37,460 nt of DNA from a virus, in the IMG/VR virus record IMGVR_UViG_3300039106_000411, positions 460 through 37,919 of that record; one strand, written 5' to 3'. This document shows positions 6,309-34,484 of the stretch, piece by piece. Each line of letters starts with the position of its first letter. Within the stretch, counting starts at the first letter, position 1. The translations under genes were made by a program, and so were the position numbers. The notes beneath the pieces are model-generated. The model was given only the letters and a program-made list of their open reading frames with translations. It had not been told where the DNA came from and did no database searches.

Positions 6309-6638
6309 TTACATTTCAACCTCAGGTTTGGCGAGCACCCACCGCTTGAGTGTCGAGTTCGTTTTGCCGAACGGAACGCCGGCATCAATTTCTTTGCCGA
6401 TTTCATCGCGGAAGATTTCGGAAAATACTTTGTTGGTTTGGAATGCTTCTCGACCGGTCATGCTCTTTTCCTCACCGAGATCTTGCTGGTTTGCTGTGAG
6501 TTTATAGTCATGAACATCATCGAGATAATCCATCTTTTCCCCGATGCGTTTCTTGCGGAACGCCTTAGATCTGAGGCTATCGCCGATGAATTTATCGGCC
6601 TGACGAATTGCGCTGAAATATGGGTTAATCGTTCTCAT
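6309..6638 (-). CDS. Hypothetical protein between helicase and terminase genes
   Basis: I do not recognise this 109-residue protein. It is highly charged, with a basic helical N-terminal part (RQADKFIGDSLRSKAFRKKR) and an acidic middle (MDYLDDVHDYK). It has no membrane segment, Cys motif or known catalytic signature. It begins six bases after the helicase stop and is followed by a gap of about 25 bases before the small HNH-like remnant. It lies on the border between the replication and packaging blocks, so its class cannot be inferred from context. Confidence 0.7.
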   Translation of the reverse strand: MRTINPYFSAIRQADKFIGDSLRSKAFRKKRIGEKMDYLDDVHDYKLTANQQDLGEEKSMTGREAFQTNKVFSEIFRDEIGKEIDAGVPFGKTNSTLKRWVLAKPEVEM

Positions 6639-6644
6639 GTTGTG

Positions 6645-7919
6645 TCATTCTTGAATTTCTTTGAAGGTGAATGTAGCCCCAGAGAACGCGAGAGGCAACT
6701 GCCAGTGCCGTGATCCGCCTCGGTTTTTATCGCACCACAGGTTTCTGAGTGCATCATCTGTGCCTCCATCTGGTTTCTCGACCTTGGAGATGATGAATAC
6801 ACCGTCAGCATCCTGACCGATTGCTCGTGATTCGCGCAGTTTGCCGGCATCGTTGAGTTGGCTTGCCGTGAGAATGTGCGTTCCAGTGCGTTTTGCCACT
6901 TGCTTCATCCTGCGTGAGATGCGTGCAATGATCTCTTCACGGGTTGCTCCCTTCCTGCCTTCATCCTCCATGAGTTGCAAGTAATCGACGACAGCAATGT
7001 CGTATCCTCCATGCTTGATGTCTGACAGGATATCGGAAGCACTTGCTGTGTCGGTATTGACCAGATCACAGCCCATCGTGGATAGTTGCCGAATCGACCG
7101 TGAAAGCATTTCCTGCTGTGCTCGACTCATAAAACCACTGTAGAGCGCACCGTTATCGACTCCGCTATCCTCACACAGGAGTCGCATCGTCTGCTCTGTG
7201 GTGGGCATCTCTAGCGAATACCAGGCTACTCTGGCACCGGCGACCAGTGCATTCCTCGCGCAGTTCTGCATGATTGCGCTCTTGCCGTCTGATGGCAGGC
7301 CGGCGAAGACGGTAACCCTACCTTTCTGCAATCCACCGCATTTTTGGTCGAGCATCGGGAAACCGGTCGTCCACCCAGGTATTGCTCCACCTCGTTTCAT
7401 CCGTTCTTCGATTTCATCCATCGTCTGGCTGATCGCGTCCTTAATCGTGATGCGTGACAGTTTGCGAACTACCACATTGTCGACTGCATCCAACGCTGCT
7501 TGTGCTTTTTCGATGGCATTCGCGATCGGTATGCTTTCGTCAGCAAACGCTGCTAATGCTGCTTGGTGCGCTTCAATGTTTCGTCGCGCCAAATATTTAT
7601 CTTCGACGACTCGCTTGTATTGCAGGTAATTGCTGGAGTGCGGGACAAAACAGAACAGCTCCGAGATGTAGGCTGCACCACCAACCGACTCCAACTCTCC
7701 CTTGTTGCGGAAGTGCTGAGTGAGCAGAGGCGCATCAATTGGGGATCCTGAGTCATACAGTGCCACAAGTCCGGTGAAAACCTTCCTGTGAACGTCTGAA
7801 TGGAATGCAGAGGCATTCAGCGTGTTTCGAGCATCACCAATACGTTCGACAGGATCTTGGAGGAAACACGAGATGAGCGAACTTTCAGCTTCGTTGGAAT
7901 GAGGTAGGTTTAGAGACAT
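6645..7919 (-). CDS. dnaB: Replicative DNA helicase, DnaB-like
   Basis: A hexameric helicase of this type unwinds DNA at the replication fork. The 424-residue protein has the N-terminal DnaB domain (AESSLISCFL..., residues 1-105), a linker, and a RecA-fold core. Walker A is GLPSDGKSA at about 207-215. SLEM at 235-238 and Walker B IAVVDYLQLM at 308-317 are classic, and SQLN at 353-356 with LRESRAIGQDAD at 361-372 matches the C-terminal DnaB motifs. The length is close to bacterial DnaB. It overlaps the DUF1376-type gene upstream by ten bases, a pairing seen in phages in which that protein helps load the helicase. No phage primase or DNA polymerase is present, so host enzymes must complete the replisome. 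Confidence 0.95.
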   Translation of the reverse strand: MSLNLPHSNEAESSLISCFLQDPVERIGDARNTLNASAFHSDVHRKVFTGLVALYDSGSPIDAPLLTQHFRNKGELESVGGAAYISELFCFVPHSSNYLQYKRVVEDKYLARRNIEAHQAALAAFADESIPIANAIEKAQAALDAVDNVVVRKLSRITIKDAISQTMDEIEERMKRGGAIPGWTTGFPMLDQKCGGLQKGRVTVFAGLPSDGKSAIMQNCARNALVAGARVAWYSLEMPTTEQTMRLLCEDSGVDNGALYSGFMSRAQQEMLSRSIRQLSTMGCDLVNTDTASASDILSDIKHGGYDIAVVDYLQLMEDEGRKGATREEIIARISRRMKQVAKRTGTHILTASQLNDAGKLRESRAIGQDADGVFIISKVEKPDGGTDDALRNLWCDKNRGGSRHWQLPLAFSGATFTFKEIQE

Positions 7920-8536
7920 GAAGGTGGTTGGAACTTGGGTTTGATATTGAGCGGTCGTTCACATTTCGACAACCAGTTCTGGAAAAAGCGTCGAGTATTC
8001 TTTCGGCTATGCTTCTGGCACCATTGGTGTGCTCTCTGGAATTCTGCTGTGATGTCGATTCCGGTGTAGTCTGGATTGGTCTTGAGTTGAGTCATCCATT
8101 CGTCGTCTGGTATTTCATTCCTGACCTTCTTCTTAGAGTTCGTAGAACTCTTAATTGGTAACGGAGACGGAGACGGAGACGGAGAGCTATCGTTTGCCAT
8201 ACCTTCTGCTAATGGCAAAACGATGGGTGTGCTATAGCTGTGCCATCGCTTTTCTGCTCCAGCTTTTCCAGCTTTTGCCTTCTCGATTTTGTATTCTTCC
8301 TGTTTAGTTCGTTCATTCTCAAGCCTTTTGTTCATTCCATCAGTGAACTTCTGTAACACATCAAGCGTTACATTTGTTCCGGCGATGCGATTCAATTTGT
8401 TTCGGTCACTGGGAATTTTTCCCTTCGACCACTGATAGCAAATCAAACGAATATATGCTCCAACCTCCTTCGCGGAAAGATCGCAAGTGCCGCCAATGAA
8501 GTCGTCGGCGTAGAATTGGAATGCTGGTGGTTTCAT
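7910..8536 (-). CDS. DUF1376 (YdaU)-type replication protein
   Basis: This 208-residue protein starts MKPPAFQFYADDFIGGT and continues SAKEVGAYIRLICYQW, the hallmark opening of DUF1376/YdaU proteins (P-x-F-x-FY--D-...--G-Y-RL---QW), a winged-helix-like domain found in phage replication blocks. A basic helix (about 75-97) is followed by a Ser-Pro run encoded by a hexanucleotide repeat. A C-terminal domain with TGIDITAEFQRAHQWCQ and TRRFFQNWL resembles the C-terminal part of replication initiator and helicase-loader-like proteins. It overlaps the helicase gene downstream and the dcm stop upstream (ATGA). A role as origin binding or helicase loading factor is likely but inferred. Confidence 0.85.
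   Translation of the reverse strand: MKPPAFQFYADDFIGGTCDLSAKEVGAYIRLICYQWSKGKIPSDRNKLNRIAGTNVTLDVLQKFTDGMNKRLENERTKQEEYKIEKAKAGKAGAEKRWHSYSTPIVLPLAEGMANDSSPSPSPSPLPIKSSTNSKKKVRNEIPDDEWMTQLKTNPDYTGIDITAEFQRAHQWCQKHSRKNTRRFFQNWLSKCERPLNIKPKFQPPSCL
8161..8184. repeat. Four tandem copies of ACGGAG in the DUF1376-type gene
   Basis: Positions 8161-8184 are four perfect copies of ACGGAG. On the coding strand this encodes Ser-Pro repeats in the linker between the two domains. The six-base unit keeps the reading frame when copies are gained or lost, so linker length can vary without breaking the gene. Confidence 0.9.
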
Positions 8537-9495
8537 GATTCTAAAAATGCTTTGACGAACTCCGCTGCGACCTGAGGTACGATTGCATTGCCATAACCGC
8601 GCAGTCGCACCACTCGTTCGGGAACCCCATGAGCCAACGGGAAAAATGCGGGTTCAGTTGGTATGCGACGGGTTTTTCCGTCTCGGCAGATGGGTTGATT
8701 TGAATTAGCCCAACTTGTCTTCCCAACTGGTCTAATCGGTTCCTGATACTCCCGTCTGGGTTCACTCCCGTAATCGACATGCCCACCGTGTCTTTGTGAT
8801 CCCTCGCCCCTGGTGTAGCCCATCCAGCGAGCGTAGAGTGTTCCGTCTCGTTCTGTGTATTCGTATCCATCCTGTGTTGGCCATGGACATTTGCAATCGT
8901 CGGTGTAGCTGAGTCCGCAAATTGAGCACTCATCCCCTGGTTCGTCCTCGTCTCCTCCGAGGCAGTCTGCGGCAAAACTGACTTTTTTCCAGTTGTCCAA
9001 ACTCGCGGCCCAATAGAGTCGTTGCCGGATGTGCGGTGCGCCGACGCTGTGTGCGCCCAATACAGCCGACCCGCAGGCGTAGTTTTCTGACTCCAGGTCT
9101 GCTTGTATTCCATCAAGCCATCCTTTCCCAATTGCTGACGCAACCTGCTCGCCAAAAACTGCGTCAGGGCGGCACTCCTTGATGAGATCAAAGAAGACTG
9201 GCCAGAGGTGGCGTTCGTCTTTGTCTCCAAGTCCTTTGCCTGCTGAACTAAACGGCTGGCATGGACACGATCCTGTCCAAACGGGTCGATCTGCTGGCCA
9301 TCCTGCAAGCTGGAGTGCAAGTGACCATCCACCGATTCCAGCGAAGAAATGGCATTGAGTATAGTGCCGGAGTTCGTTGGGTTGCACTTCTGCAATTGAT
9401 CGTTCGTCCACATCTCCAGTTGGAATGAGTCCTGCGATGATGAGTTCGCGTAACCATGCTGCTGTTTTGATGTCGTGTTCATTGTAGTAGTTCAT
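8533..9495 (-). CDS. dcm: DNA (cytosine-5)-methyltransferase
   Basis: The enzyme transfers a methyl group from S-adenosylmethionine to cytosine in DNA. In 320 residues it has motif I FFAGIGGWSLAL (50-61), motif IV GSCPCQPFS with catalytic Cys79, a motif VI-like FGEQVAS (114-120, in place of ENV), motif VIII RQRLYW (157-162) and motif X YGNAIVPQVAAEF (301-313). A Cys-rich insert (190-204: C-SIC-...-CKC) lies in the target recognition part, as in other phage relatives. No restriction partner is near, so it is an orphan enzyme, probably protecting phage DNA from host restriction. The start follows an AACACAACACAAC leader with no SD site. The same DNA carries a second open frame of 313 codons, described separately. 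Confidence 0.93.
   Translation of the reverse strand: MNYYNEHDIKTAAWLRELIIAGLIPTGDVDERSIAEVQPNELRHYTQCHFFAGIGGWSLALQLAGWPADRPVWTGSCPCQPFSSAGKGLGDKDERHLWPVFFDLIKECRPDAVFGEQVASAIGKGWLDGIQADLESENYACGSAVLGAHSVGAPHIRQRLYWAASLDNWKKVSFAADCLGGDEDEPGDECSICGLSYTDDCKCPWPTQDGYEYTERDGTLYARWMGYTRGEGSQRHGGHVDYGSEPRREYQEPIRPVGKTSWANSNQPICRDGKTRRIPTEPAFFPLAHGVPERVVRLRGYGNAIVPQVAAEFVKAFLES
8541..9482 (-). CDS. Second long reading frame inside dcm (overprinted gene candidate)
   Basis: An uninterrupted frame of 313 codons, shifted +1 relative to dcm, starts at ATG 9482 (13 bases inside dcm) and ends eight bases before its stop. The predicted protein has features I recognise from separately annotated phage proteins: SSLISSRSAALTQFLASRL (97-114), YKQTWSQKTTPAGRLYWAHT (126-145), ASAHRTSGNDS (147-157), GWATPGARDHKD (220-231), and NPHFSRWLMGFPNEW (277-291). 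The last is close to the LNPRFxEWLMGxPxxW signature seen near methyltransferase C-termini. It has no methyltransferase motifs of its own. Translation could follow from the nearby ATG, also in an A/C-rich context. Whether both frames are expressed is unproven. Confidence 0.5.
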   Translation of the reverse strand: MNTTSKQQHGYANSSSQDSFQLEMWTNDQLQKCNPTNSGTILNAISSLESVDGHLHSSLQDGQQIDPFGQDRVHASRLVQQAKDLETKTNATSGQSSLISSRSAALTQFLASRLRQQLGKDGLMEYKQTWSQKTTPAGRLYWAHTASAHRTSGNDSIGPRVWTTGKKSVLPQTASEETRTNQGMSAQFADSATPTIANVHGQHRMDTNTQNETEHSTLAGWATPGARDHKDTVGMSITGVNPDGSIRNRLDQLGRQVGLIQINPSAETEKPVAYQLNPHFSRWLMGFPNEWCDCAVMAMQSYLRSQRSSSKHF

Positions 9496-12955: not shown

Positions 12956-13319
12956 TTTCTTTTGTGATGGTGATTTCGATGCGTGGATTGATTGAGTCTT
13001 TTGTGAAGACCGGACGCTCAGGCCAGAGTGCTCTGTCGTTGACGATAATGCCGGCATCAGCAATCCCATCTTCGCTCGATTTTAGGCTTGCCATAAAATT
13101 CCCAGGATCGGGAAAGTTCATCGTCTTGAAAAACGCCTTCACATTCATCTTCGCCTTCACCCATCCTGGCGGACGGCGAAGGTTGAGAGCTTCAAGTGCC
13201 GCGAGATGCGCTACCTTGCGCGATGCCTTTGTGAGCTTTGCTTTCTCGGCCCAGTGAACCCTGGCATTGGGAGATAGCTTGCGCGCAGGGATTGGCAGGA
13301 CGATTGTGATTGATGTCAT
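12948..13319 (-). CDS. rusA: RusA-like Holliday junction resolvase
   Basis: RusA enzymes cut four-way DNA junctions made during recombination and help clear branched DNA before packaging. The 123-residue length is right for the family (about 120). It begins MTSITIVLPIPARKLSPNAR, like RusA proteins (-P-PP-S-N---), with HWAEKAKLTKASR and the acidic segment MNFPDPGNFMASLKSSEDGI with ADAGIIVNDRAL. RusA usually has DxDN at the first metal site; here it is DPGN, a variation that may weaken or alter metal binding. ATG at 13319 was chosen for its ATGA overlap with the helicase-methyltransferase stop. Neighbouring RecT, nuclease and SSB genes support a recombination role. Confidence 0.85.
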   Translation of the reverse strand: MTSITIVLPIPARKLSPNARVHWAEKAKLTKASRKVAHLAALEALNLRRPPGWVKAKMNVKAFFKTMNFPDPGNFMASLKSSEDGIADAGIIVNDRALWPERPVFTKDSINPRIEITITKENE

Positions 13320-15517
13320 GCGAATAGCGCCAGATCGGTTTGCGACTTCGCGTTTTGCAGGTTCTCGCAAGCCTGCTTGAAGTAGCTTTCCTTGAGTTCC
13401 GCGCCGATGAATTGACGGTCACATTCAAGCGCCCCGACCCCTTCGCTGCCAATGCCCGTAAAGGGTGAAAACACGACATCGCCTTCATTGCTCCAAAGCG
13501 TGATTGCACGCTCGATTACGTCCAGTTGCAGCGGGCAGATGTGCCGCTCGTCCTTGTGATCACGCGCCCCGTTGCGGTTCAGCACGCGCCCCTGATCGAC
13601 TGTCATCCAAACGGGTGATGCCACCTCCTGCCACCAGTCCACCGGATAGCGTGCCGGATCTTTCGTGACTGGCTTTGGGTTCTCGCCGGGCGCACGGAAG
13701 ACAAGCAGATAATCGGCGCAACCAACGCGGGAATCGCATGAGTCGGCTTTCAGTGTCTTGTAAAGCAGTCCGTGTGCCTTCGTGCGTTGCATCTCGGTCA
13801 CTGGTGATTTCCAGATGCAGATGCGCGAGTGAAAAAGGAAACCATGACGCCAGAATGCGCGGATGATTTCGCCGCTGAAATCCTGAAACTGGATAGCTCC
13901 GTGCTTCCATTTCGTCGCCAGCAAGTCCACGCAATGCACCGCAACCTCACGCCCTGGAACCATGATGCGCGCAAGCTCCGCAATCAGGAGTTCAAAATGC
14001 GCCGTGAACTCGTTCATATCCGCGCAGTTGCCCATATCTTGCAGATCGTCGGAGTATGTGAACAAGTCCGCGAATGGCGGAGAAAACACGCTGAAATCAA
14101 TACTATGATCTGGAATGGATCGCGCAACGCGGACGCAATCGCCGTGATGAACTGTCCAGTTTTTGCCCGTCGCTGTGGTGATGTCTTCCTTCATGTGTGT
14201 GAGTTTCTGCGTGTTCTCTTTGAATGCCTCTGATGCCATTTTCATTTGCTCCTGCATGTTGCGGTGTTGTTCGATCTTGCGTTTGATGGTTTGAAGGATT
14301 GCGCCCTCCGTTGCTGCTTGCACGACGATCGCGTTAACTGGCTTCGTTTGTCCAAAGCGATACGAGCGGCGCAGCGCCTGGTAGAAGTCCTCAAATGAGT
14401 AGTTGAGGCCAACGAATGCCACGTTGCTGCAATGCTGCCAGTTCATCCCATAACCAAAGATGCCGCTCTTTGAAATCAGCACCCGAACCGCGCCAGAAAC
14501 GAAATCATCCGCCGCCTTTTCCTTCTTCTTGGCGCTATCGCTGCCGCGAATTTCAACCGCATCAGGAATGGCTTTCGCGAGCTGATCGGCTTCGTCATTC
14601 GTGTTGCACCATACCACCCATGACTCGGTTGATGCGTTCACTTCCGTTGCAACCCTTGCGACTCGCGCTGGTGAAGTAAGACGCATTTCCTTGTGCATCG
14701 TGGTTGCTGAGAGCGTAGCGTGCCTGAATAGCTGGTCATCGCTGCCGGTTGTTTCGTCCACTTCCACGATCTCCGTGCGCAGATTCAGCGGCGGCAGGAT
14801 GTAACCAGCATCATCAAAGCCGATGTCTGACGGCTTGCCGATGCACGCGGCCCAACTCGCCACCCATTCCCAGAACTGCTTCTCAGCATGCTTTTTAAGC
14901 CTCCAATCTCCCGTGTTGAACGTGTCGTTGATAAAGAACGTAGCGAGCATTTGCGCGCGCGAGCACACGCCGAGGAAGTCAGCGTGCTGCCCGAACTCAG
15001 TATAGTCGTTAGGCGATGGCGTAGCCGTGCAGCAAAGGCGATAAGGCGTGTCTTTGAACCTGTCAGTCATGGCGCGCCGCGTCTTGCCTGTAAAGTTTTT
15101 CAAGATGCTGGATTCATCCAGAACGACGCCAGCGACTTCGACATCCGCGAAGTGTTCTAGCTTGTCGTAATTCGTGATGTAGATGCCCGATTCTGTCATC
15201 TGTTCGCCAGACTCCACAACCTGCGCGGAGAGTCCGAACTTAGTCGCCTCTTGCGCCGTCTGATGCGCTACCGCCAGCGGCGTGAGAATCAGCACCTTGC
15301 CCGATGTCTGATTGACCACTTGATGCGCCCATTCAAGCTGCTGCAAAGTCTTGCCAAGTCCGCAATCCTCAAAGAGCGCGGCCTTGCCAGTTCTCACAGC
15401 CCACTTAATGACGTGAGCTTGCCAGTCGAAGGCAGGGACGGTTATGTCATGCGGCTCAAAGCCGGTTGATTTACTCGATCGGTCTTTCCCGATGATGAAT
15501 TGATTGTATGTGTCCAT
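13316..15517 (-). CDS. SNF2-type helicase fused to a DNA methyltransferase
   Basis: This 733-residue protein joins two enzymes. The N-terminal part (about 25-415) is an SNF2-like ATPase: Walker A ALFEDCGLGKTLQ (47-59), DESS (134-137), motif III CCTATPSPND (162-171) and motif VI YQALRRSYRFGQT (379-391). The C-terminal part (about 450-725) is an amino-methyltransferase acting on DNA: HHGDCVRVARSIPDHSID, catalytic motif IV SPPF (479-482) and then, near the end, SAM-binding SPFTGIGSEGVGA (684-696). Having motif IV before motif I is the beta-class order (N6-adenine or N4-cytosine). Translocation along DNA could make methylation processive and protect new phage DNA. It sits between the nuclease and resolvase genes. 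No restriction subunit is present. Confidence 0.92.
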   Translation of the reverse strand: MDTYNQFIIGKDRSSKSTGFEPHDITVPAFDWQAHVIKWAVRTGKAALFEDCGLGKTLQQLEWAHQVVNQTSGKVLILTPLAVAHQTAQEATKFGLSAQVVESGEQMTESGIYITNYDKLEHFADVEVAGVVLDESSILKNFTGKTRRAMTDRFKDTPYRLCCTATPSPNDYTEFGQHADFLGVCSRAQMLATFFINDTFNTGDWRLKKHAEKQFWEWVASWAACIGKPSDIGFDDAGYILPPLNLRTEIVEVDETTGSDDQLFRHATLSATTMHKEMRLTSPARVARVATEVNASTESWVVWCNTNDEADQLAKAIPDAVEIRGSDSAKKKEKAADDFVSGAVRVLISKSGIFGYGMNWQHCSNVAFVGLNYSFEDFYQALRRSYRFGQTKPVNAIVVQAATEGAILQTIKRKIEQHRNMQEQMKMASEAFKENTQKLTHMKEDITTATGKNWTVHHGDCVRVARSIPDHSIDFSVFSPPFADLFTYSDDLQDMGNCADMNEFTAHFELLIAELARIMVPGREVAVHCVDLLATKWKHGAIQFQDFSGEIIRAFWRHGFLFHSRICIWKSPVTEMQRTKAHGLLYKTLKADSCDSRVGCADYLLVFRAPGENPKPVTKDPARYPVDWWQEVASPVWMTVDQGRVLNRNGARDHKDERHICPLQLDVIERAITLWSNEGDVVFSPFTGIGSEGVGALECDRQFIGAELKESYFKQACENLQNAKSQTDLALFA

Positions 15518-22381: not shown

Positions 22382-25300
22382 TCACTCTTCACCAAATGCA
22401 TTTTCTAACACCTGCGCAAAGTCGTAACCAGCGTGTGAAAGCGTGGCTATTCCTCCCGCCGTGTCGTTGAAGTAGCCGAGAACTGACAAAACAGTATCGA
22501 CGTCTTTCATGTCGGCCTTGCCATCAAATACATCCTTGATGGACTGCTTAGCGTATTGAGCGCCAGACAGTGAACCGCCCTCGCCTGCGATCATGCCAGC
22601 GCCAGGGATTGCGGAAGTAATCGGCGATAGTGCCGCCATCGTGAGCCGTTCAGGACTCCACTTCTTCTCGTCATCATCGCCCTTAGCTTCGCGCCAGAGA
22701 TTTTTGAGAAGCTGCGACATTAGCCCGCCGACGACAAATACAAGAAAAGCAGTTTTAGCCGTGCCCGCTGGATCATTCTTGGCATTGTAAGCAGACCATG
22801 CGAAAAGCGCCACTTTCTGCCGCGCCTCCGAAGCGTAGGCCCACGACATTTTAGCCAGAGGATTCGTGTTCGTAACTTCGATAATGGACCTTGCACCAGT
22901 GCGGACGGGTTGCGCCACTTGCTCAGTAGCGTTGACGGCTTCAGCGTGTGCGTAGGATTCCAGCGCCTCGCCTTCCATTCCCATCTTTGCGCCCATCGCG
23001 CGGTGGTAATCGAGGAGAATTGCATACGTTCCGGCTGTGAATAACCCATCAGCTCCAGAGAGCAGTTGCCCAAGATGGCGGGTGACGCGCTGGATTTGAT
23101 TCGGCCTCGTAGCCTCGCCGATGTTCTGCATGGCTTGCCGGATCAACGGAGGCGCAGACTTGATGCGCCGTTGAATGAACTCGGAATTGATTGCATCGCT
23201 CCATTGCAGATTCCCAGACATGAGCAGGGCGAACCGTTTGAGATACGAGCCGACTGGCATCCTTACCGATGCCGCCGCGAGCTGCGTTGATTGCACTAGA
23301 AGCGTCGAGAAACGACCAAGAAGACCAACGGTAGCCACACGGCCCGAAAGCCTGCCCAAGCCATCGGAAACGGCCAATCCTGCGGCAGCGTCACGGGTTC
23401 CGCCTTGCGCGAACACGTCCACCCATTTTTTGAGGACGGTTGCGCCCTCGTCACCGACAGCCGCCTTGATTGAGTTGCCGACATCTCGATTGCCAAGAAC
23501 GGATTGCATCTCAACAGCCAAATCGTAATACGCCTTCCAATGCTCCATCTGCTTCGTGTGAGCGATGAATGTCGAGAGAGCATCGCGAAACTCAGGCTCA
23601 GCCAATGCCGAGCGATTACGAGAACGCAGGGAGCCTGGGGTTAAAATAGAGCCAGCGATTGCAGCACCAGAAACAGGGTCGACCATCTCGCCCGCCTTTG
23701 CCTGCTGAGGCGTTACGGTGATAGGCGCGTATTTGTCATGGCGCGGCAGATTGACGCCGTGACGCTCACGATAAACCGCATTCAATGGAACCCACTCTTC
23801 ACCGTAAAGTTGCTCGATGAACTTCTTTACTTCGACGGCCTCGGGCGAAAGCTTGCTAGTCAGCTCGTCAATCCATGCTTGATCGTAGCTCCACTTGCCT
23901 TCAACGGGCGCGCCGTTCTCATCTCGCGGCCCTTCCATGTGGCGCTTGCCGTCTTCCTGCTGCCACATAAGCAGCGCCTGAATGCCCTGAAGCTGTGAAA
24001 TATTACGCTCATTCATGCCGCCTGCGCCGATTGTCAGCGTAGGCTGCGCAAGATCAAAGCGCAGTCTTTCGCCCTTTAAAACACCGCCTGCGAGAGTTGT
24101 GAAAAACTCATCGATGCGCTCGCTAAATTCCTGAATGGCATCCTCGTATTGATTCGATGCGTTGCGCTCATTGTCGATAAACTGCCGCGCTGCTTTCTCG
24201 CCGAAAACGGCTTTCATAACTTCACCAAACGAAGAAAGGTTTAGAACCCACCGCGCTGCTTTGCCTAGAACCTTTGCAGACTCCAGTTTCATCTTGTCGC
24301 GCTCGCTCGCTACGCCTTTCTTTCCGGTGGCGGACTTGAGCATTTTACGCATTTCCTCGCGCTGCTCACGTTTAAGCAGCTGCTTCAATTTCCACTTTGC
24401 CCAGCCTTCTGAGAGAACGTCATTCAGCGCCAGGAAAGCAGATTCACGACGGGCAGAGTCGGCATTCTTCCAATCGCCTAGAAGCTGAACAAGCTCGCGC
24501 ATTGTTTCGAGTTTCGCCTCTTCCTCGGCGCTGATATTGTCGGCATCAAGAAGCACGTTGATTGCAGCAATCTCGGCGTTGGTTTGATCCGCTGAAAGTT
24601 CCATTGCCCTCTCTGCCTTGTCCGCGATTTCCTGCGCGTCTGGATCAAGCTTGCCTTTCGGCTTCTCGCCCGCCTTGCGCGCTGGACGATACTTGTCAAA
24701 AAGCTTATCGGTAGCCTCGCCGTATTGATCTTTGAGATGCTTTTCAAGCAGCACCTGCCCACGTTCAAGCTGCTTCTGCAACACCTTCAGCCGTGCCGAC
24801 TCTGAAGCCTTACGAGCCAGCGCCACGAATCCGCCGATTTTGCCACGAATCTCTTGCGGGAACATTGCGACGATAGCCTCTAGCGTGATGAGGTCACGCA
24901 CCAGCGATTCACGCGGTGACCAGTCCTCTTTCTGCATTGCGTCAGTTTCGGTGCGCCATGCCTGCGCCTCCTTGCGAGCCTGCTCAAACGCTGCTCTTTC
25001 AACAGCCTTGACCGCATCTTCAGCCTTAGCGTAGCCAGCCTTCGCCGCGCGATGGGATTTAATGGACGACTCCAAAGCAGCCCACATCTCAGAAGCGTAA
25101 TCAAAGCCGAGATTATTCGCCATCACGTCTGGCATGATGCCGCCCACTGCGGGAATTGTTGCCTTGTTGATTTTAACCTTTACCTCACCCGACTTAATTG
25201 CAGCCTTGATTTCAGCGGGAACTTTGGCGGACGGGAAGCTTTCGCTTGATCCGTCCTTGCGCGTGATAACAACGGTCTTGATTGTCCTGCCGTTGGAATA

Positions 25301-28300
25301 CCACTGCGGAGGAATCCAGTTTAGATCGTCATATTGATCTTTGATGTTTCGACCTTCACGCGCAGCCGTAGCTTTTGACATTAAGCGCCCGTTGTTGTTC
25401 AGCATCTTCTTAACAAGCGGATCATCTTCGAGCGTGCCCACACCTTCACTCCACGCCATCAGCGTCTCCGGCGTCAAATTGTCCATGCCTTCATTCACAA
25501 GCTCAACCTCACGTTGCGCCTGCCTCATCGCCTGCTCCTTGTCCAAGCTCTTGACCGTGCGTTTCTCGCTAATCGGCCTGACTTTATTGCCCTGCGGCGT
25601 CCATCGCTCCTGACTCCACTTGTCTGCAAGTTTAGCAAATTGGCGGATGACTTTGGACTTCACCTCAAGCGCGCCCGATGGATTTTCCTTGAACTGGCGC
25701 TCTACTTGGTCGCTCAGTTCGTTGAGATTGCGGATGGGTGAGATGGAGAAGGTGATGCCGGTATTAGCAGCGTCTAAATCATCGCCAAAATAACCGAATT
25801 CCATCAAATCATCCATCGCCCATCGCACATCAGATGCCTTTACTTTGGCGCTCCAAATCTTGAAGTCTTGCCCATCGCCCGGGCCTTGTGCGTGCGTAGT
25901 GGCGTAACTCTTTGAAAGAGTTATCCAGTCGCCTGAATTAATGGCAGACTTTGGTGAAGCTCGATAAATCGTCAGCATTGCATCCGGCTTGCCGCGAACG
26001 GATTTTAGTTGGCGCACGGTTTCAGCAATCTCTGTTTTTGAGTATCCAGAATACCACTCTGGATGATCGTAAACATCAGCAGGAGAAATGCCGCCCTCCG
26101 CCAAATCAAAGGCACGCGGCCCGTCTGCGTTTGGGCGATGATTCATCCAGTATTCTTGGGAGACGCTGAACGCCATGTTCCCAGCATCAATCACCGCCTG
26201 CGTTTCCGCATCAACGCCGAGCATAGCCTTTCCTTCCTCGACCGCTTGCGACTCCATTTGCTTTACCTCGTCAATGCCGAGGACTTTGTTGATAAACGTA
26301 TCGTATTCCTCGCCGATCTTGCCATCGTCGCGGGCTTTGGTGATAGCGTCCACTGTGCCAAACACGCCTTTTAGGTAGGCAGTGAACGCTTTAATTGCAG
26401 CCAGAATGCTCTTCAGTGCGCTGACTTCCTCTTGGGTATTAGCACCCATGACAGACGCTTCAATAGCGCGTGAGATTGAGCCAGGCTTCATGCCTGTAGC
26501 ACGGCCTTGGCGATCACGTCCTAGCACGTCACGAATGACCATTTCAGACACGGTTTCGCGCAGCATGGTTTCATTGCCTTGATCGTTTGCTAGCGTGCGT
26601 AGATTGGCGATGAATTGAGCCTCTTCGGCGTTCAATGCTGTTACACCTTCAAAGGCAGGTAGAAGTGCGCGCATTGCTGTGCGTGTCTCTTGCTCTGAGA
26701 ACGTGCCGTTTGTCATGCCTAAGCGCCAAGTCGATTCAAAGTTTTCGTGCAGGAATGTGATCACCTGCGGCTGACCTTCATCCTGCGACTTGTAGAGGTT
26801 CATCCTGCGGACGATCTCCTTTGCACCATCAGCCACGCGCATCGGGAAGACCTCATTGGAGCCGTTGATGTGAGCAAAGATGCCTTGTGTGCCTGTCTTG
26901 ATGCCGGCGACCTCAGCCTCTGCGCGGACTGTTTCTAAAGCCTGAGGGCCAAGCTGACGTTGGGAGAGGATGGCGCCGCCGGCATCGCGACGAGTTGCCA
27001 CAACTCCAACCGCTTCAACATTAGATGCCTGAACAGTCTCACCTGTAAACACGGTTTCAGCCTGCCGCCCTGCCGCGTAGTAGTCGTCAATGACCGTAAC
27101 GAGTGAATCGGCTTCTTGCTGGCTTGCGACCTGTCGAAGGTCAACTGCGATACGCCTAGCAGCTTCGGCGGAGTCCACAGTTAGAACCGTTCCGCTGCCA
27201 GTCTGGACTTGCCAGCCAGACGGTGATCGAGTCACGTTCACGGTGTAATCGGGTGAAGTCGTGTCTTGGAGTGAAGCGATGGCAGATTGTTCTTTCTGTA
27301 GTCCTTTGAGCCTTTCAGCCGCTTGGATGCGTTGATCTGCCGTCGCTTTAACCTGCGACACGTCAGCGCCTTTAGAATTGATCTTCTGCCAATCAATCCG
27401 CATGGCATCCTCTGCCTCGCTCCATTTGCCAGCATTGGCTAGCTTGCTGATCTTCGCGGCAGATTCAGGCGAAAACTCCGCAGCAATGAGCATATCAGGA
27501 GATCGAGCAAGTTCACGACCTGCGCGGAAATCTGACAACTGACCAGTCCCAGCGCCAACAATCGCAAGCGGAAGGATGGTTGAAATCAATTCTGGCATAT
27601 TCTGCGCGAACTCACCAAGAAAACCTTCCCAGTCGGAGCCTGGAATGTCGCTGTTTAATGCCATCGCAATGTCTTGAACTGCCAGCGGTGTCACGCCCTG
27701 CGCAAACTCTTCGCCGACTTCCGTGGCCGTGCCGATTGCTGCCCGTGTCGCAAACATTCCAGCCGCGCCCGTAGCCGTAAAGATGGGCTGAGTGAATGCG
27801 CGCTTGAGATTCGGAAGCCTACCGAAAAGAAAGCGGTCAGATGCAATCTCAGTCACAGCCTGAAACGGTGCCGAGATGGTGGCAATAGCGTTCGCGGCAT
27901 CGCGTGACATCGTTGGATTATTTCGGCGAACCTCGTTATACGTCGAGCGCTGGAAGCTGCCAAGCGTAACAGCCGCGCCCACATAGGGAATGAATGAGCC
28001 TAGCGTCATTGGAATGTTTTCCGCCGCGCCAGCGATATTCATTCCCGCAAACTTTACAGCGTTTAACGGTGCTAGCTTGCCCGTTGCAATGTCGCGCATG
28101 TCGTCGCGGAGGTCGAGAAAGTCAGCCACGGATGAAGAAGCCGAAAGGACTTCACCGCTTTGGGCAGGCGTGAGCAACGGGTTATCCCTTGCTGATGCCT
28201 CAATGTCAGCCATTGACGATCCGAGCAACGATGTTGATGCCGTGTCAATGTAGCGCTCCATGCCACGCAGAAACGCCAGTTTGATTCTCTCGCCATCTTC

Positions 28301-28957
28301 CGACTTTGATTCGCCGGGAGTCTGGAGCGAAAGTGCTTCAATGACATATGGGCGATCTTCCTTTGGCACCTTGACCAGCTCGCTAGCCATCGCGCCCCAA
28401 TCCATGCCATCTGGCGCAGTGTCGATATTGCGCGCCATGTCCGCCACCGTTTTGATCGTGCTGCGATATGGCGCAACCTTCGCCGCCATTTCATCATGAG
28501 CAGCACGAGCAAGGCCGAGATAGTTGGTCATTCTGCCTGGAAGCATAGAGCCTGCATTTGCCGTTTCCACTTCGCGAAACTTACCGAGCCACGATTCACC
28601 GCGAGCGGCAGCGATTCGAGAGGCGCTTGCAATCTTATCTTGCGCCTGATAATCGGCGGCGATCATGCCGAACATATCGCCATCTGAGACATTTGATGCG
28701 GCTTGATTCTTGAAGTAGCCGCGTGCAATACCATCTTTGATGCCTTGCCATTCTGGAGATGCAGGATTGACACGACGATTCAGCGCAACGCCAGCCCATC
28801 CGGCAACGGCGGAAGATGTGAGAAACGACTCCTTGTCTTCCACGACTCCGCCAAATGCGGAATCATCCATAAGAGCTTTAGCGCCTCCGAATTCTTGATC
28901 CAAGAATGCAGAGCGTAAACGGCGCGAGCGCTCTTCGGTGATTTGTTCAGGCGTCAT
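22382..28957 (-). CDS. Giant internal virion protein of polyvalent type
   Basis: At 2191 residues this is the largest product. By position and size it is the counterpart of the large internal virion protein (gp16-like) that is ejected into the host cell. The N-terminal part has hydrophobic patches (about 310-450). Near 930-1065 a segment with YDHPEWYSGYSKTEIAETVR, LTIYRASPKSAINSGDWITL, SKSYATTHA and DDLMEFGYF has the layout of an ADP-ribosyltransferase-like domain (Arg in YRA, Ser-rich strand, Glu in EFGYF), as in polyvalent proteins of phages. Charged coiled-coil stretches follow (about 1240-1560). The C-terminal region (about 1850-2190) resembles LPD38-type segments, with FLVFVVGGLMSQLL near 2070. 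The 28957 start overlaps the gene before it by ATGA. Confidence 0.85.
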   Translation of the reverse strand: MTPEQITEERSRRLRSAFLDQEFGGAKALMDDSAFGGVVEDKESFLTSSAVAGWAGVALNRRVNPASPEWQGIKDGIARGYFKNQAASNVSDGDMFGMIAADYQAQDKIASASRIAAARGESWLGKFREVETANAGSMLPGRMTNYLGLARAAHDEMAAKVAPYRSTIKTVADMARNIDTAPDGMDWGAMASELVKVPKEDRPYVIEALSLQTPGESKSEDGERIKLAFLRGMERYIDTASTSLLGSSMADIEASARDNPLLTPAQSGEVLSASSSVADFLDLRDDMRDIATGKLAPLNAVKFAGMNIAGAAENIPMTLGSFIPYVGAAVTLGSFQRSTYNEVRRNNPTMSRDAANAIATISAPFQAVTEIASDRFLFGRLPNLKRAFTQPIFTATGAAGMFATRAAIGTATEVGEEFAQGVTPLAVQDIAMALNSDIPGSDWEGFLGEFAQNMPELISTILPLAIVGAGTGQLSDFRAGRELARSPDMLIAAEFSPESAAKISKLANAGKWSEAEDAMRIDWQKINSKGADVSQVKATADQRIQAAERLKGLQKEQSAIASLQDTTSPDYTVNVTRSPSGWQVQTGSGTVLTVDSAEAARRIAVDLRQVASQQEADSLVTVIDDYYAAGRQAETVFTGETVQASNVEAVGVVATRRDAGGAILSQRQLGPQALETVRAEAEVAGIKTGTQGIFAHINGSNEVFPMRVADGAKEIVRRMNLYKSQDEGQPQVITFLHENFESTWRLGMTNGTFSEQETRTAMRALLPAFEGVTALNAEEAQFIANLRTLANDQGNETMLRETVSEMVIRDVLGRDRQGRATGMKPGSISRAIEASVMGANTQEEVSALKSILAAIKAFTAYLKGVFGTVDAITKARDDGKIGEEYDTFINKVLGIDEVKQMESQAVEEGKAMLGVDAETQAVIDAGNMAFSVSQEYWMNHRPNADGPRAFDLAEGGISPADVYDHPEWYSGYSKTEIAETVRQLKSVRGKPDAMLTIYRASPKSAINSGDWITLSKSYATTHAQGPGDGQDFKIWSAKVKASDVRWAMDDLMEFGYFGDDLDAANTGITFSISPIRNLNELSDQVERQFKENPSGALEVKSKVIRQFAKLADKWSQERWTPQGNKVRPISEKRTVKSLDKEQAMRQAQREVELVNEGMDNLTPETLMAWSEGVGTLEDDPLVKKMLNNNGRLMSKATAAREGRNIKDQYDDLNWIPPQWYSNGRTIKTVVITRKDGSSESFPSAKVPAEIKAAIKSGEVKVKINKATIPAVGGIMPDVMANNLGFDYASEMWAALESSIKSHRAAKAGYAKAEDAVKAVERAAFEQARKEAQAWRTETDAMQKEDWSPRESLVRDLITLEAIVAMFPQEIRGKIGGFVALARKASESARLKVLQKQLERGQVLLEKHLKDQYGEATDKLFDKYRPARKAGEKPKGKLDPDAQEIADKAERAMELSADQTNAEIAAINVLLDADNISAEEEAKLETMRELVQLLGDWKNADSARRESAFLALNDVLSEGWAKWKLKQLLKREQREEMRKMLKSATGKKGVASERDKMKLESAKVLGKAARWVLNLSSFGEVMKAVFGEKAARQFIDNERNASNQYEDAIQEFSERIDEFFTTLAGGVLKGERLRFDLAQPTLTIGAGGMNERNISQLQGIQALLMWQQEDGKRHMEGPRDENGAPVEGKWSYDQAWIDELTSKLSPEAVEVKKFIEQLYGEEWVPLNAVYRERHGVNLPRHDKYAPITVTPQQAKAGEMVDPVSGAAIAGSILTPGSLRSRNRSALAEPEFRDALSTFIAHTKQMEHWKAYYDLAVEMQSVLGNRDVGNSIKAAVGDEGATVLKKWVDVFAQGGTRDAAAGLAVSDGLGRLSGRVATVGLLGRFSTLLVQSTQLAAASVRMPVGSYLKRFALLMSGNLQWSDAINSEFIQRRIKSAPPLIRQAMQNIGEATRPNQIQRVTRHLGQLLSGADGLFTAGTYAILLDYHRAMGAKMGMEGEALESYAHAEAVNATEQVAQPVRTGARSIIEVTNTNPLAKMSWAYASEARQKVALFAWSAYNAKNDPAGTAKTAFLVFVVGGLMSQLLKNLWREAKGDDDEKKWSPERLTMAALSPITSAIPGAGMIAGEGGSLSGAQYAKQSIKDVFDGKADMKDVDTVLSVLGYFNDTAGGIATLSHAGYDFAQVLENAFGEE

Positions 28958-30477
28958 GGGTTGATGTTTTGCGGCTGTGCGTTAAGTGCTGGCAGGATTG
29001 GATTATCGAACATGTCGAAGTAATTAGCGACCTCATCCGCGACAGGCATTGTCAGAATGTTTTGTGAAGTTTTGCGTGCCTTTTCTGGCGTTGGGTCATC
29101 GCCAATCTGAGCGCGGAAAAGCTTCTTTTTTTCGGTAGCTTCGGATTGTAGCTTGCGAAACTCGGCCTCTTTTCCCGCTTTGATTGCGCCCTTGTCATCA
29201 AGCAGCGCGTCCATCTTTGGCTTGTAGAGCTTGGCAATGTAATCGTCGTTGTCGCCAATTTCCATACTGGCAAGATTACCTTTGCTGCCGCCTTTCTTGC
29301 CGCCCCATGACATCGCTAAATCAGAAGCCATGTAAGGCACGGCTTGCTTGTAGGCGTCAAGGTCCGCTGAAATGCGAAGCATTTCCAATCGGTCAGGGTC
29401 TTTATCCATGTCATACTTGCCAATTCGCGCCTCAAGTTCTAGCCGTTTGCTGGACGCCTGCGCTTCCGTAAGTGGCGCTGGAATAGTTGCGGCTTCGCGT
29501 AATTCGGCTTGCTTGGCGTCTGACAAATTCCACTGAAATTTAAAGTCCTTTGGATTGCCGCCGTTGACGACAAAATTAGCAAAGCCTAAAACCTCGCGTT
29601 GCTGAAAATCACGATGAACGCCTTCTGCATAATTTTCCACCTTTACCTTATCGTCTGGCGTAAGTTCGGGAAAAGCGCCCGCCTTAATCTTGGCCTTGGC
29701 AATGACGGGATCAACGTCGGCAATCTGGCGAACGGTGCCCATTGCTTCAATTCTTAGCGATTCAATTGAATACTCCTTTGATTCTTGCGGCGTAATGATG
29801 CCCTGCTTCTCGGCAGAAATAACAGCATCAGCCATGCCCACGCCGTCGTATCGCTCACGCGCCATTCTGATTTGAGATTGAAAAACTTCAGCCTGAAACT
29901 TCTTTTCAGAATTAGCAACTTGCAAGCGCATTGCTTCCTGTTCCTGTGGCGACGATGGAATCGCTTGATTGTAGTCGTCCACTGCTTGCCGAGCCGTTGC
30001 AAAGTTGCCCGTCTGCTGCGCGACAATCAGAGCGTTTTGAACCGCAAGACCAGCGTTTTTTCCAGTCTGCTTGTATGCTTCCGACTGCACGCCAATCGTG
30101 CCGCGCATACTCCAGTCAGAAAACCGATTGGTGAGCTGCATTCGTGCATCTGGCGTAAGTTCAGCCGCATTGAATTGCTGCTCAAGATTTGTCTGAATCT
30201 TCTGCCATTCAGGCAACCACTGCTTCTCGTCTGGGTTATTCTGCTGAAACGTAGCAAAGTCCATCTGCGCCTTGTTCATCGTCATGCTGGCGTTCGTGAG
30301 ATTAGTCACGTCGTTGGCACGCTTTGACTTCTCCGCGATGTCCATTGCCACCTGACCGACATTACCCAGCGCCTTGCCTAGACTGGCATTCGTTACGGCT
30401 GGCAGGTTTGCGGTCTGTTGCGTTTGGTTGCCAGTGTTTAGTTGGCCTGGAGATTGGAGGATTGGGATTCGTGCCAT
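28954..30477 (-). CDS. Internal virion protein (gp15-like position)
   Basis: This 507-residue, mostly helical protein is rich in Gln, Ala, Lys and Asp. It begins MARIPILQSPGQLNTGNQTQ, as in several podovirus internal proteins that open with short Pro/Gln segments, and has long helical regions such as QMDFATFQQNNPDEKQWLPE and DARMQLTNRFSDWSM. No enzyme motif is seen. Sitting before the giant ejected protein and after a small Ala/Gln-rich protein, it matches the order gp14-gp15-gp16 of T7. A role in the ejection channel is inferred from this order. Confidence 0.8.
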   Translation of the reverse strand: MARIPILQSPGQLNTGNQTQQTANLPAVTNASLGKALGNVGQVAMDIAEKSKRANDVTNLTNASMTMNKAQMDFATFQQNNPDEKQWLPEWQKIQTNLEQQFNAAELTPDARMQLTNRFSDWSMRGTIGVQSEAYKQTGKNAGLAVQNALIVAQQTGNFATARQAVDDYNQAIPSSPQEQEAMRLQVANSEKKFQAEVFQSQIRMARERYDGVGMADAVISAEKQGIITPQESKEYSIESLRIEAMGTVRQIADVDPVIAKAKIKAGAFPELTPDDKVKVENYAEGVHRDFQQREVLGFANFVVNGGNPKDFKFQWNLSDAKQAELREAATIPAPLTEAQASSKRLELEARIGKYDMDKDPDRLEMLRISADLDAYKQAVPYMASDLAMSWGGKKGGSKGNLASMEIGDNDDYIAKLYKPKMDALLDDKGAIKAGKEAEFRKLQSEATEKKKLFRAQIGDDPTPEKARKTSQNILTMPVADEVANYFDMFDNPILPALNAQPQNINP

Positions 30478-30478
30478 G

Positions 30479-31060
30479 TTAGTATCCTGCTGGACGCTGA
30501 GAAACGCTCTTTGGCTTATAACCTGCTGGCACTGTCGATCCGCCAGATGCAGGCTGCGGACGTGTCGAGAACGCTGAAGCAGCGCTTCCAGCCGCTTGCC
30601 CTAGCCCTGAGATGGCCGTGCCAACTGCCTCTGATCGAATCTGCGCGGCCTGCTGTGCGCCCATTGCCAGCGTATTAGACTGCTGAAAACCGAGGTTACG
30701 CTGTGACAAGTCGGCCATGCGCTGCTGATCGGCCAATTCTGTCTGCTGCTTTGCCCACGTATCGGCTTCAATGGCAAGGCTTGTTCCCGTGCCTAGCATT
30801 GCGCCCGACGACGACATTGATGCTAGCTGTTGAGCGCGCACGCGACGTTGCTCAACCACTGCGCGACGTTGGTTCTCGCCTGCCTCAAGCGCTTGTCTGG
30901 ATCGCTCTTGACCGATAGCATCAGCTTGAGCCTGAGCATTAAGCTCTGCCTGTTTAGCAGCAGTTTGGGCCGATGAATATGCCACACCGGCACCAGCAAC
31001 GGCAGCAGCGGCGCTAACGCCTTGCGCAATGGCAATAATAGTTGCTGTTTCAAGTCCCAT
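30479..31060 (-). CDS. Internal virion protein (gp14-like)
   Basis: This 193-residue protein has an Ala-rich hydrophobic N-terminus (AQGVSAAAAVAGAGVAYSSA, residues 13-32), a long polar helix (KQAELNAQAQADAIGQERSR, then QRRAVVEQRRVRAQQLASMS) and SSSGAMLGTGTSLAIEADTW, typical of gp14-like proteins of podoviruses. The glycine/serine/proline-rich tail is flexible. In T7 the corresponding protein helps build the transient channel for DNA entry. Four genes in a row (31471-22382) follow this scheme. Confidence 0.82.
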   Translation of the reverse strand: MGLETATIIAIAQGVSAAAAVAGAGVAYSSAQTAAKQAELNAQAQADAIGQERSRQALEAGENQRRAVVEQRRVRAQQLASMSSSGAMLGTGTSLAIEADTWAKQQTELADQQRMADLSQRNLGFQQSNTLAMGAQQAAQIRSEAVGTAISGLGQAAGSAASAFSTRPQPASGGSTVPAGYKPKSVSQRPAGY

Positions 31061-31472: not shown

Positions 31473-34400
31473 TTATCTTCCAGCCCCCGATGTGCCGTCG
31501 ATCTCAACGTCCAGTATCATGCCGGTGAGATTAAATGGCAGAGGATGCTTCGATGCGATCACGATGTCTAAGCAGTTGCCCCAGTCATGGTTCACAGGGT
31601 CAGGCAATGTCTGACCGGTGACATAACCGGTGGTGGTCGCAGTGAGTGATGGAGATACTGGGAACGCATCAATGTTGTCGATATTGATCCGACTGCTGTA
31701 GGTGTAGTCTGCACCTGACAATCTGTTCCAGACCTGACCGTAGAATGAGCGAAACAGTCGGAATGCTGCACGAGCAACTCTCCATCTCCTCATCTGAGCG
31801 GTGCCTTCACGAAGCTGGATCTCGACTCTGTTCGGAATGATGTATGCAACATAAGGAAGACCGACATTCATTGGTGCTGCCACAGAAGACAGCGCAAACG
31901 TCACTGTGCTTGCGCCGGCCGTAGCTTCGATTGGTGCTCCGGTATCAGTCACCGACGATGTGCCGAGAATGAGTGATCGGCTCGTTAGATTGGCATTGCC
32001 TGACACAGTGAATACCGATGTGGTTGTTCCTGTCGGAGTCAGTATGCTGTAGCAATCGCAAAAGAACCCTGCTTTGCCAGTCGAATGTTGCGTTGCTGAT
32101 GCGGATGCATAGTTCACGTCTGATGACGTAACCGCTGCGATCATGATGGAACCATCAATGGACTCAAGGTTGATGGTTCCACTTTTGCGGTTTGTTAGGA
32201 AAATGAGCGAATCTGCTGCGGTCGATGACGAGTAGAGCGTGCAAAGGGACAGAATCTTGTCGCCGGTAAATGTCCGGTGCGAATGCCAGGCTGTGACCGA
32301 GTTCTCACGATCATAGGTGAATCCGCTCCATGAACCGTCAGAATGCACGAGCCACACAATCGGGTCAGGTGACTGTGAATATGTCATGTACTCCACCGAG
32401 GATCTGCTTGGGATGTGTTCAGCGAGCAGCATCATGTCTGGCGCAGAGTAACCATCCTTCTCAAAGACGTAGGCAAACTCACGCAAACGGTCATCTCGTG
32501 TCAACCACAGCAGGGAGTCGCCCGAAAGAACAGGCTGATGGTGTGATGATCCATATCTACTCCACCGGCGAAGTCTGATGTTCGCCGGCGTTAAGGCTGA
32601 ATCGGTATCACCTGTGTCCAACGTCCACTCTTCGCCGCTCGTGCCGATGACCATCGTGCGCTTGAATGATGCCAACCACTGGATTTCATTCGCCTGAGTA
32701 GCCGCAAGCGTCATATCGATCGCACTCGTGTCGAGCGCACCGGTTAGGAATGTGTAGAAGTCATCTGTCTGACTCCCCCAAATGCGTGTTGGCTCAGTTG
32801 TCGTCGATGCGAAGAACAACCGCTGATCATGGAATGCCAGTGTGCGAGGATACCCACGAGAGACAGAGAATGCCGCCTTCTGCCAAATGGCAAAGTCGCT
32901 TCCAAGGACTTCGTTCGGAATCAATGAATTCACTGCGAGCTTTGGAACTCCGATGAATTGATACGGAGTCGAAGATGAATATGTATTGAGAATGAATGGT
33001 ATTTTAAGAATGCCATTCACTGCCTCAAGAGTCATTCTTGCTGCTGTTGTTGCTGTGCCTAAGGGTCGAATTGTTGTCGCTCGATACCATCCTCCAGTGT
33101 TTGGGGCAGTGCCTGAATAGGATATTGTCCCTTCATTTAGATCATTAATATACCACTCACGAAGTGTTGAGTAATTAACCTGATCAAGTGATTCTTCAAT
33201 GTGAACTACAGTCGTTATTGGAGCAGATGCAGATGCCCATGTTGTTCTAAAGATGAATTCATTCTGAATAAATACAGAAGAACTAGTAGTCGTTGAAACT
33301 GCTGCGGTTCCCATCACCTCATTAGCAAACCTCTTTGTTGAGCTTGGGGAGAGTAACCAGTTTGCGCCAATTTCATCAGCACTGAATGTTGTGCTCAAAC
33401 TACTAATCAGCCTATAATTAGTAATCTGGAGTCCGCTGCTTTTGTAGTTTACGCGAACCCATGCAGGAGTTGCCCCATCAGGAGCATTTGCCGCAGTTGC
33501 AGCACCGGCCGTGATGCACACATAGTTGCTTGCTTGGTATTCAGCGATTTGGCCGAAGGCATAGGTGGCACCTACGTTCCAAGATGAACTGTATGTTGCT
33601 TCAGTCCAATCTGCTGTTTTGAATATGTTAGCAGTCGATGTCGTTGCTGATTCATAGACAAAAGTGCGGATGTAGTCAGAACTTGTGGTGACGTAGAATG
33701 CTCCTGTTGCAGCACCATAGGTGCCGGTTAAGGTGCCGGCAGAACCAACAAGATCAAAAGTGTTAGCTGTTTTCCCTGAGATGACCCATGTTCCCAACGC
33801 GCTCGTCACAGCGACTCCGTAAATTGTCACAGTGTCTCCGTTACTCAATCCATGTGCGGCAGCGGTAACTCGGTGAAGACTACCAGATATCGCGATACCT
33901 GTGATTGCCTGCGTGAATGGCAGCGTGACAATGTTCCCTTTGGTGTAGGTTGAACTCGTGTTCCAGTCGTCTGCATTATACAGCAGGCGCATCGTCGTCG
34001 CATCCTTCGGCGCACCGAGCACAGGCGCAAAATCAAATGGCACATCGACGAATGTCCACGTCCCGTCGCTATTCCTCGTCAAACGCTTTGGATGCTTGGT
34101 CGAGCAGGTGAAGAACATCACGTCATTCAATTGGACGTAGTGCAACAATGGAATCTCTGCGGACGTGTAGTCGGTCGTGACGGTAGTCATCGAGGTGAAT
34201 GCGCCGGCGGTGTAGGAATACACCACGATTGAGTTTACTTTGAAGGCAAGCACAAAGTTTACGTCAGTGCTGCGCCTGAACGGGATAACTCTCAAGATGC
34301 CGCTATCTGTCACTCCAAACCTTGTGCCAGGTCGTTTGAACGCTCCACCGTAGGAGCGCACCATGAAGTTTTCCACCATGCGGCATCCGGTTGCATACTT

Positions 34401-34484
34401 CTCAGAGTCTGTCCGCCCATCCATAATCGGTGACATTTCGCCACCGTTGAAGACTGCTTTGATCGTTTGAATCTGTGAACTCAT
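31473..34484 (-). CDS. Tail tubular protein B-like (gp12-like)
   Basis: This protein builds the tail nozzle of T7-like phages. The 1003-residue product begins MSSQIQTIKAVFNGGEMSPI and continues GRTDSEKYATGCRMVENFMV, then GGAFKRPGTRFG, the classic start of tail tubular B family proteins (NGG-SP-M-GR-D---Y--G---EN---...G---RPGT-F). A segment at about 190-265 (TAAAHGLSNGDTVTIYGVAV) resembles the FCCH-like repeat found in phage tail proteins. Much of the rest is Ser/Thr-rich beta structure. It starts by ATGA overlap with tail tubular A. The length exceeds T7 gp12 (about 800), partly through such insertions. Confidence 0.9.
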   Translation of the reverse strand: MSSQIQTIKAVFNGGEMSPIMDGRTDSEKYATGCRMVENFMVRSYGGAFKRPGTRFGVTDSGILRVIPFRRSTDVNFVLAFKVNSIVVYSYTAGAFTSMTTVTTDYTSAEIPLLHYVQLNDVMFFTCSTKHPKRLTRNSDGTWTFVDVPFDFAPVLGAPKDATTMRLLYNADDWNTSSTYTKGNIVTLPFTQAITGIAISGSLHRVTAAAHGLSNGDTVTIYGVAVTSALGTWVISGKTANTFDLVGSAGTLTGTYGAATGAFYVTTSSDYIRTFVYESATTSTANIFKTADWTEATYSSSWNVGATYAFGQIAEYQASNYVCITAGAATAANAPDGATPAWVRVNYKSSGLQITNYRLISSLSTTFSADEIGANWLLSPSSTKRFANEVMGTAAVSTTTSSSVFIQNEFIFRTTWASASAPITTVVHIEESLDQVNYSTLREWYINDLNEGTISYSGTAPNTGGWYRATTIRPLGTATTAARMTLEAVNGILKIPFILNTYSSSTPYQFIGVPKLAVNSLIPNEVLGSDFAIWQKAAFSVSRGYPRTLAFHDQRLFFASTTTEPTRIWGSQTDDFYTFLTGALDTSAIDMTLAATQANEIQWLASFKRTMVIGTSGEEWTLDTGDTDSALTPANIRLRRWSRYGSSHHQPVLSGDSLLWLTRDDRLREFAYVFEKDGYSAPDMMLLAEHIPSRSSVEYMTYSQSPDPIVWLVHSDGSWSGFTYDRENSVTAWHSHRTFTGDKILSLCTLYSSSTAADSLIFLTNRKSGTINLESIDGSIMIAAVTSSDVNYASASATQHSTGKAGFFCDCYSILTPTGTTTSVFTVSGNANLTSRSLILGTSSVTDTGAPIEATAGASTVTFALSSVAAPMNVGLPYVAYIIPNRVEIQLREGTAQMRRWRVARAAFRLFRSFYGQVWNRLSGADYTYSSRINIDNIDAFPVSPSLTATTTGYVTGQTLPDPVNHDWGNCLDIVIASKHPLPFNLTGMILDVEIDGTSGAGR

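Follow-up and report, generated by a model that had tools for sequence, protein, structure and literature searches.

A predicted ADP-ribosyltransferase as an exchangeable cassette in a giant, probably ejected protein of a T7-like podophage lineage

Can the proteins that a podophage ejects into its host carry enzymes as well as a path for DNA? This question is raised by a stretch of 37,460 nucleotides (positions 460 to 37,919 of IMG/VR record IMGVR_UViG_3300039106_000411; hereafter the window), which makes up most of a 37.9-kb viral record. Positions 22382-28957 hold a single open frame of 2191 codons on the minus strand, the plus strand there being full of stops, and the encoded protein (hereafter the giant) sits where the largest of the internal virion (ejection) proteins would be expected. 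An earlier reading of the DNA, here called the original prediction, saw an ADP-ribosyltransferase (ART)-like segment at about residues 930-1065 of this protein; the peptides it quoted are indeed found in the minus-strand frame, at residues 963-982, 995-1014, 1015-1023 and 1049-1057. A phrog_2579 match, an AlphaFold model and fold searches place an ART-like domain at residues 930-1066 (25760-26170; all window features given here lie on the minus strand). We consider it probable that this is a virion-delivered ART, carried as a cassette in a modular cargo bay of the giant. The exchange of this cassette and the recurrent peptide at its borders were missed by the original prediction and are the more interesting result.

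The domain family is real and widespread in phages. Residues 929-1062 match phrog_2579 (E 3.9e-27), and among 50,697 phage records relatives were found solely for residues ~906-1077 of the giant. A profile search of IMG/VR gave 319 related stretches, and 80 loci were kept for a survey of the settings in which the domain occurs. It is found alone (147-195 residues), at the end of proteins of 400-600 residues, and inside giants of 1,800-3,900 residues. Portal proteins are its fusion partners in L010, L033 and L026-L028, and Mu F (L018), GNAT (L036) and HNH (L076) domains are found as other partners. Giants with LPD22/LPD23 and the domain lie behind a tail tubular gene in L077 and L078, and in eight loci (L042, L044, L047, L053, L069, L072, L074, L075) a domain protein of 214-379 residues is encoded near the gene for the terminase large subunit. 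The nearest relatives are the giants in L001-L003, with 55-60% shared within the segment; the long alignments of the flanks with these giants, part of which also take in the segment, average 25-37%. Separately, the domain protein of L005 (6252-6614) also has an N-terminal match to a rifampin ADP-ribosyltransferase (Arr-ms, PF12120).

Conservation within the family was assessed in 57 non-redundant members, all of which share H940, R999, N1007, G1009, D1010, W1011, A1019 and E1053. Arg999 (25961-25963), which lies on predicted strand 85-92 of the window model, is the predicted catalytic arginine of strand 1, and Glu1053 (25799-25801) is the predicted catalytic glutamate. T1013-x-S1015 (25913-25921) is the probable equivalent of S-T-S in R-S-E ARTs, with T in 68%, S in 22% and A in 8% of members at position 1013. 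The original prediction had placed the S-x-S element at S1015-x-S1017, but these residues are not conserved (S1015 in 66%, S1017 in less than 50%), and T1013, which lies on a predicted strand and is T or S in 90% of members, fits better. By these residues the family appears to be an ART of the R-[ST]-E type, marked by an N-x-G-D-W signature of its own. The suggested likeness to the ARTs of polyvalent phage proteins did not hold either. These are H-Y-D enzymes, whereas R-S-E is the Alt/VIP2 type (PMC5512222; PMC9503650); in this family R and E are invariant instead of H-Y-D, and the domain had no Pfam match to PF18760 (ART-PolyVal) up to E 1 and an hhalign probability of 0.2%.

AlphaFold models of the window domain (m4f8b3fc181c1, predicted local distance difference test score 86) and of the relative from L044 (score 92) were both compared with the PDB, and the matches were almost exclusively ART structures. 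The top Foldseek matches were PARP12, Exoenzyme S, PARP15, Vis and cholera toxin chains. About nine in ten rows listed by VIA-align were ART chains (PARPs, Tpt1, Arr, pertussis, cholera, TreX, ParT and RES) at Z 2-6, with best values of 5.7 and 5.3, a uniformity to be read with the caveat that VIA-align re-scores Foldseek's own candidates. Because the Z of any single match is too low to trust, the fold argument rests on the uniformity of this list. In both models the first aligned residue places the invariant arginine on residue 7 of cholera or LT A chains, and in the L044 model the last aligned residue places the invariant glutamate on residue 112 of the same chains and on residue 129 of pertussis S1, assuming in each case gap-free alignment ends. 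These three positions are the known catalytic residues, and PDB titles name Arg7Lys and E129D mutants. Based on the models, the domain very likely has an ART fold, with structural support that is weak but consistent and with sequence methods silent. The original prediction of an ART-like segment is supported in its fold and in its Arg and Glu, and fails in its S-x-S. As a further observation, the L044 model has a weak match (Z 2.2) to 9k3a_B, a cyanophage A4 pre-ejectosome protein (residues 1261-1594).

Is the domain a fixed part of the giant? A near relative in L082 has 92% identity to the window giant at residues 1067-2191 and 92-100% over residues 671-895. DNA homology between the two (82%) ends at window position 26223 and restarts at 25754. 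This break delimits a cargo bay at residues 913-1068 (25754-26221), in place of which L082 has ~500 residues of different cargo. On either side lie an N-terminal framework (residues 1-912; 26222-28957), conserved in relatives, and a C-terminal framework (residues 1069-2191; 22382-25753), recognised by its identity with L082 and containing a hydrophobic stretch at residues 2066-2084. Three parts can be told apart in the L082 cargo (6470-7950): one resembling Kinase-PolyVal (a sub-threshold match, E 0.0027), an unassigned one, and a VVIYRA...GTFWSSSSSFVSAF segment; judging by its sequence, this last segment (VVIYRA...WSSSSSF) looks like another R-S ART cassette. An hhalign comparison of the window domain with the replacing cassette aligned the two in the register expected, but weakly (P 0.01), and we do not rely on it.

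The bay varies in content across more distant homologues as well. Querying IMG/VR with the C-terminal part of four giants confirmed 101 homologues, 80 of which were fetched, and just three of the 80 carry the ART-like domain. Other bays hold PF18760, MuF_C or RadC. Two recognised cargo domains each are present in L001, L002, L003 and L084, whereas a single effector is recognised in the window phage, and L087 and L088 differ by one cassette gained or lost precisely at RFSV. Judged by these sequence comparisons, the ART-like domain can be swapped as a cassette, and the cargo bay that holds it is modular.

The borders of the bay carry a short peptide, [FY]S[ILV]. In the window giant (P0001) F-S-[ILVMA] occurs exactly twice, as F930-S931-V932 at the left junction (26162-26170) and F1070-S1071-I1072 at the right junction (25742-25750), flanking the domain, and L082 shares the borders GNMAFSVS and TFSISPIRN. 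Within the bays of 44 non-redundant giants we observed 171 occurrences of [FY]S[ILV] where shuffles predicted 31, and outside the bays 27 where 47 were expected. Of 23 non-redundant module breakpoints between related giants, 14 fell within 12 residues of the motif (null mean 4.6, with 11 the maximum in 2000); in a larger, redundant set the figure was 67 of 99 (null 19.6). The border consensus is [NSAT]-[FY]-S-[IVL]-[GRAS]. We found no earlier description of this junction motif or of a swappable ejection-protein bay in the open-access literature.

A DNA recombination site was ruled out as the basis of the motif: its serine is encoded by both TCN and AGY codons, so that the peptide, rather than a site in the DNA, is under selection. 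Nor is the motif a general mark of the ART-like domain. It borders the domain in giants of the P0001 type (window, L001-L003) and in L011, five of 24 overall, and since most unrelated giants are without it around the domain, it belongs to the framework of the window lineage. Just before the bay, about one quarter of 47 non-redundant relatives have an HExxH helix (HETVH, HEAFH, HEFTH), the site being degenerate in others (EEINH, RDFAQ); in the window giant it reads HENFE (residues 737-741; 26735-26749), a degenerate zincin-like form recognised by comparison with relatives. A zincin within the giant that cuts at the motif is unsupported as a general rule, as the motif is common both in giants with an intact HExxH and in those without; self-cleavage is thus no general explanation. 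The peptide may serve as a cleavage site or as a docking strand, or may be a seam that the protein tolerates.

The case for delivery comes from gene order. Along the minus strand, genes for the major head protein (PF19821), tail tubular A (phrog_394) and a tail protein in the place of tail tubular B (31473-34484; phrog_376, E 2.4e-117) are followed by a 147-residue open reading frame, an internal virion protein in the place of gp14 (30479-31060; phrog_418, E 1.1e-7), a 507-residue protein in the place of T7 gp15 (28954-30477) and the giant. The 507-residue protein has a counterpart between the tail protein and the giant in relatives L002 and L003 as well, and the window also encodes a portal of the T7 type (PF12236). 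The giant thus comes after the internal virion protein genes, as expected of a T7-like gp16, and its position at the place of the large internal virion protein, as originally predicted, is borne out. T7 gp16 itself gave no sequence match, and we therefore infer the giant's role in ejection from this order, which makes it the probable ejection protein of a lineage of T7-like podophages. As to the host, seven contigs from prokaryote genomes gave a match, six of them from Verrucomicrobiota, and this suggests a host in that phylum.

Our combined findings are best explained by a virion-delivered ART. The two framework halves would serve the virion core and DNA entry, and the bay between them would accept interchangeable effector cassettes, in the window phage one compact ART with an R-[ST]-E active site. 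Packaged in the capsid core, the giant would exit ahead of the DNA on infection and present or release the ART in the host cytoplasm, where the enzyme would move ADP-ribose from NAD+ onto a host macromolecule as its target. Consistent with delivery, genes for the portal, tail tubular A and B and the phrog_418 protein surround that of the giant, and relatives of the domain are fused to head proteins. Several results weigh against this explanation. Foldseek E-values were ~0.1 or worse for both models, and structural Z scores stayed below 6, under the level of trust for any single match. Searches of Pfam, NCBIfam and PDB sequences with the giant, and of Pfam and PDB with the 57 family members, returned nothing meaningful and thus no sequence or profile link to a characterised ART; hhalign likewise found no relation of the domain to PF18760-type or Arr-like domains. 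The Pfam ART family PF01129 had no match in the phage record, and the controls gave none either. Outside the ART segment the giant has no PHROGs or Pfam match of note, its lack of a match to T7 gp16 counts here too, and its C-terminal framework is absent from all cultured phages in the collection searched. Finally, mycobacteriophage Phrux encodes the domain as a protein on its own, of 129 residues, near a recombinase gene, and the domain is therefore not always part of a virion.

Other readings of the domain differ in what they ask of it. An ART fold that hydrolyses NAD+, or that ADP-ribosylates DNA, RNA or a small molecule, including in a role against host defences, would suit an enzyme class that includes NADases, DNA modifiers and Tpt1, and Tpt1/KptA gave the best rows for the L044 model. 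These rows lie within 1-2 Z of protein-modifying ARTs and so do not discriminate, and phage R-S-E ARTs modify mostly macromolecules (PMC9503650); we regard this reading as distinctly unlikely. Less likely still is an ART fold that lacks catalysis and either binds NAD or ADP-ribose or has a purely structural role, like IcmQ. IcmQ is among the fold matches, and the second element is not S/T in every member, but 57 diverse sequences all keep the arginine and glutamate of the catalytic sites, which degenerate ART relatives do not. The PHROGs name of phrog_2579, 'ParB C-terminal domain', would make the segment a ParB-associated DNA-binding domain, which is highly improbable: the match covers positions 334-466 of the 472-position profile, that is its last third, this piece occurs alone or with portal, Mu F, GNAT or HNH partners, and its fold matches are ARTs. 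No ParB Pfam domain was matched in the giant. The PHROGs label is thus misleading for the ART-like domain.

The border peptide invites a deflationary reading as well, in which [FY]S[ILV] is merely a first strand shared by many cassette families and the giant remains inside the capsid or has a late role. In several cassettes the motif does stand a few residues before the first ART strand, and around the ART-like domain of unrelated giants it is absent. Yet it precedes unrelated families, is also found beside the framework at the right border, and is rarer than expected outside the bay; we consider this reading rather unlikely. We tentatively propose, at somewhat less than even chance, that the giant is a modular vehicle in which unrelated enzyme cassettes are plugged between the framework halves at [NSAT]-[FY]-S-[IVL]-[GRAS], the peptide being a processing or docking signal, so that injected effectors could be exchanged by recombination and the ejectosome would not have to be rebuilt.

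Two further observations concern other parts of the window. At 8533-9495 and 8541-9482, two long frames on the same strand but in different frames overlap by ~940 bases and match different families labelled as DNA methyltransferases, phrog_363 (E 1.6e-75) and phrog_1008 (E 5.9e-25); from these matches, the stretch is apparently double-coding. A 733-residue fusion at 13316-15517 combines DNA helicase-like and DNA methyltransferase-like parts (phrog_16, phrog_67).

Virion-delivered ARTs and polyvalent proteins are both known already. Here a predicted ART family without a Pfam entry, present in hundreds of viral contigs and ~170 sequenced phages, had been filed under a misleading ParB name. The giant and its homologues also form a natural series in which injected cargo varies between near-identical frameworks, with a peptide border that can be tested. 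This makes it possible to approach what ejectosomes carry besides DNA, and how the domains of a giant separate and fold after passage through a narrow tail.

How does this protein compare with known systems? T7 gp16 and other ejection proteins resemble the giant in their position after gp14- and gp15-like genes, in their size rank and in their known mosaic domain content (PMC8954989). T7 gp16 has 1318 residues, as opposed to 2191 in the window giant, in which no transglycosylase domain was detected, and a review of ejection proteins describes no swappable-enzyme bay for T7 gp16 (PMC8954989). T4 Alt, of the Alt/VIP2 family (R-S-E), is similar in being an ART with Arg and Glu, in its proposed delivery by the virion and in acting as infection begins (PMC5512222); Alt forms a head protein of its own, whereas the predicted window ART is carried as a cassette within a probable ejection protein. 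The virion RNA polymerase of Roseovarius Plymouth podovirus 1 likewise has an ART fused to a large podovirus virion protein (PMC5512222), but there the framework is an N4-type RNA polymerase and the ART is H-Y-D. Polyvalent proteins with ART-PolyVal differ from the window giant in the H-Y-D site of PF18760 and in that the window phage has a single recognised effector. Similar to the window giant, however, they are giant phage proteins with an effector bay, and homologues of the window giant carry PF18760 in the very same bay.

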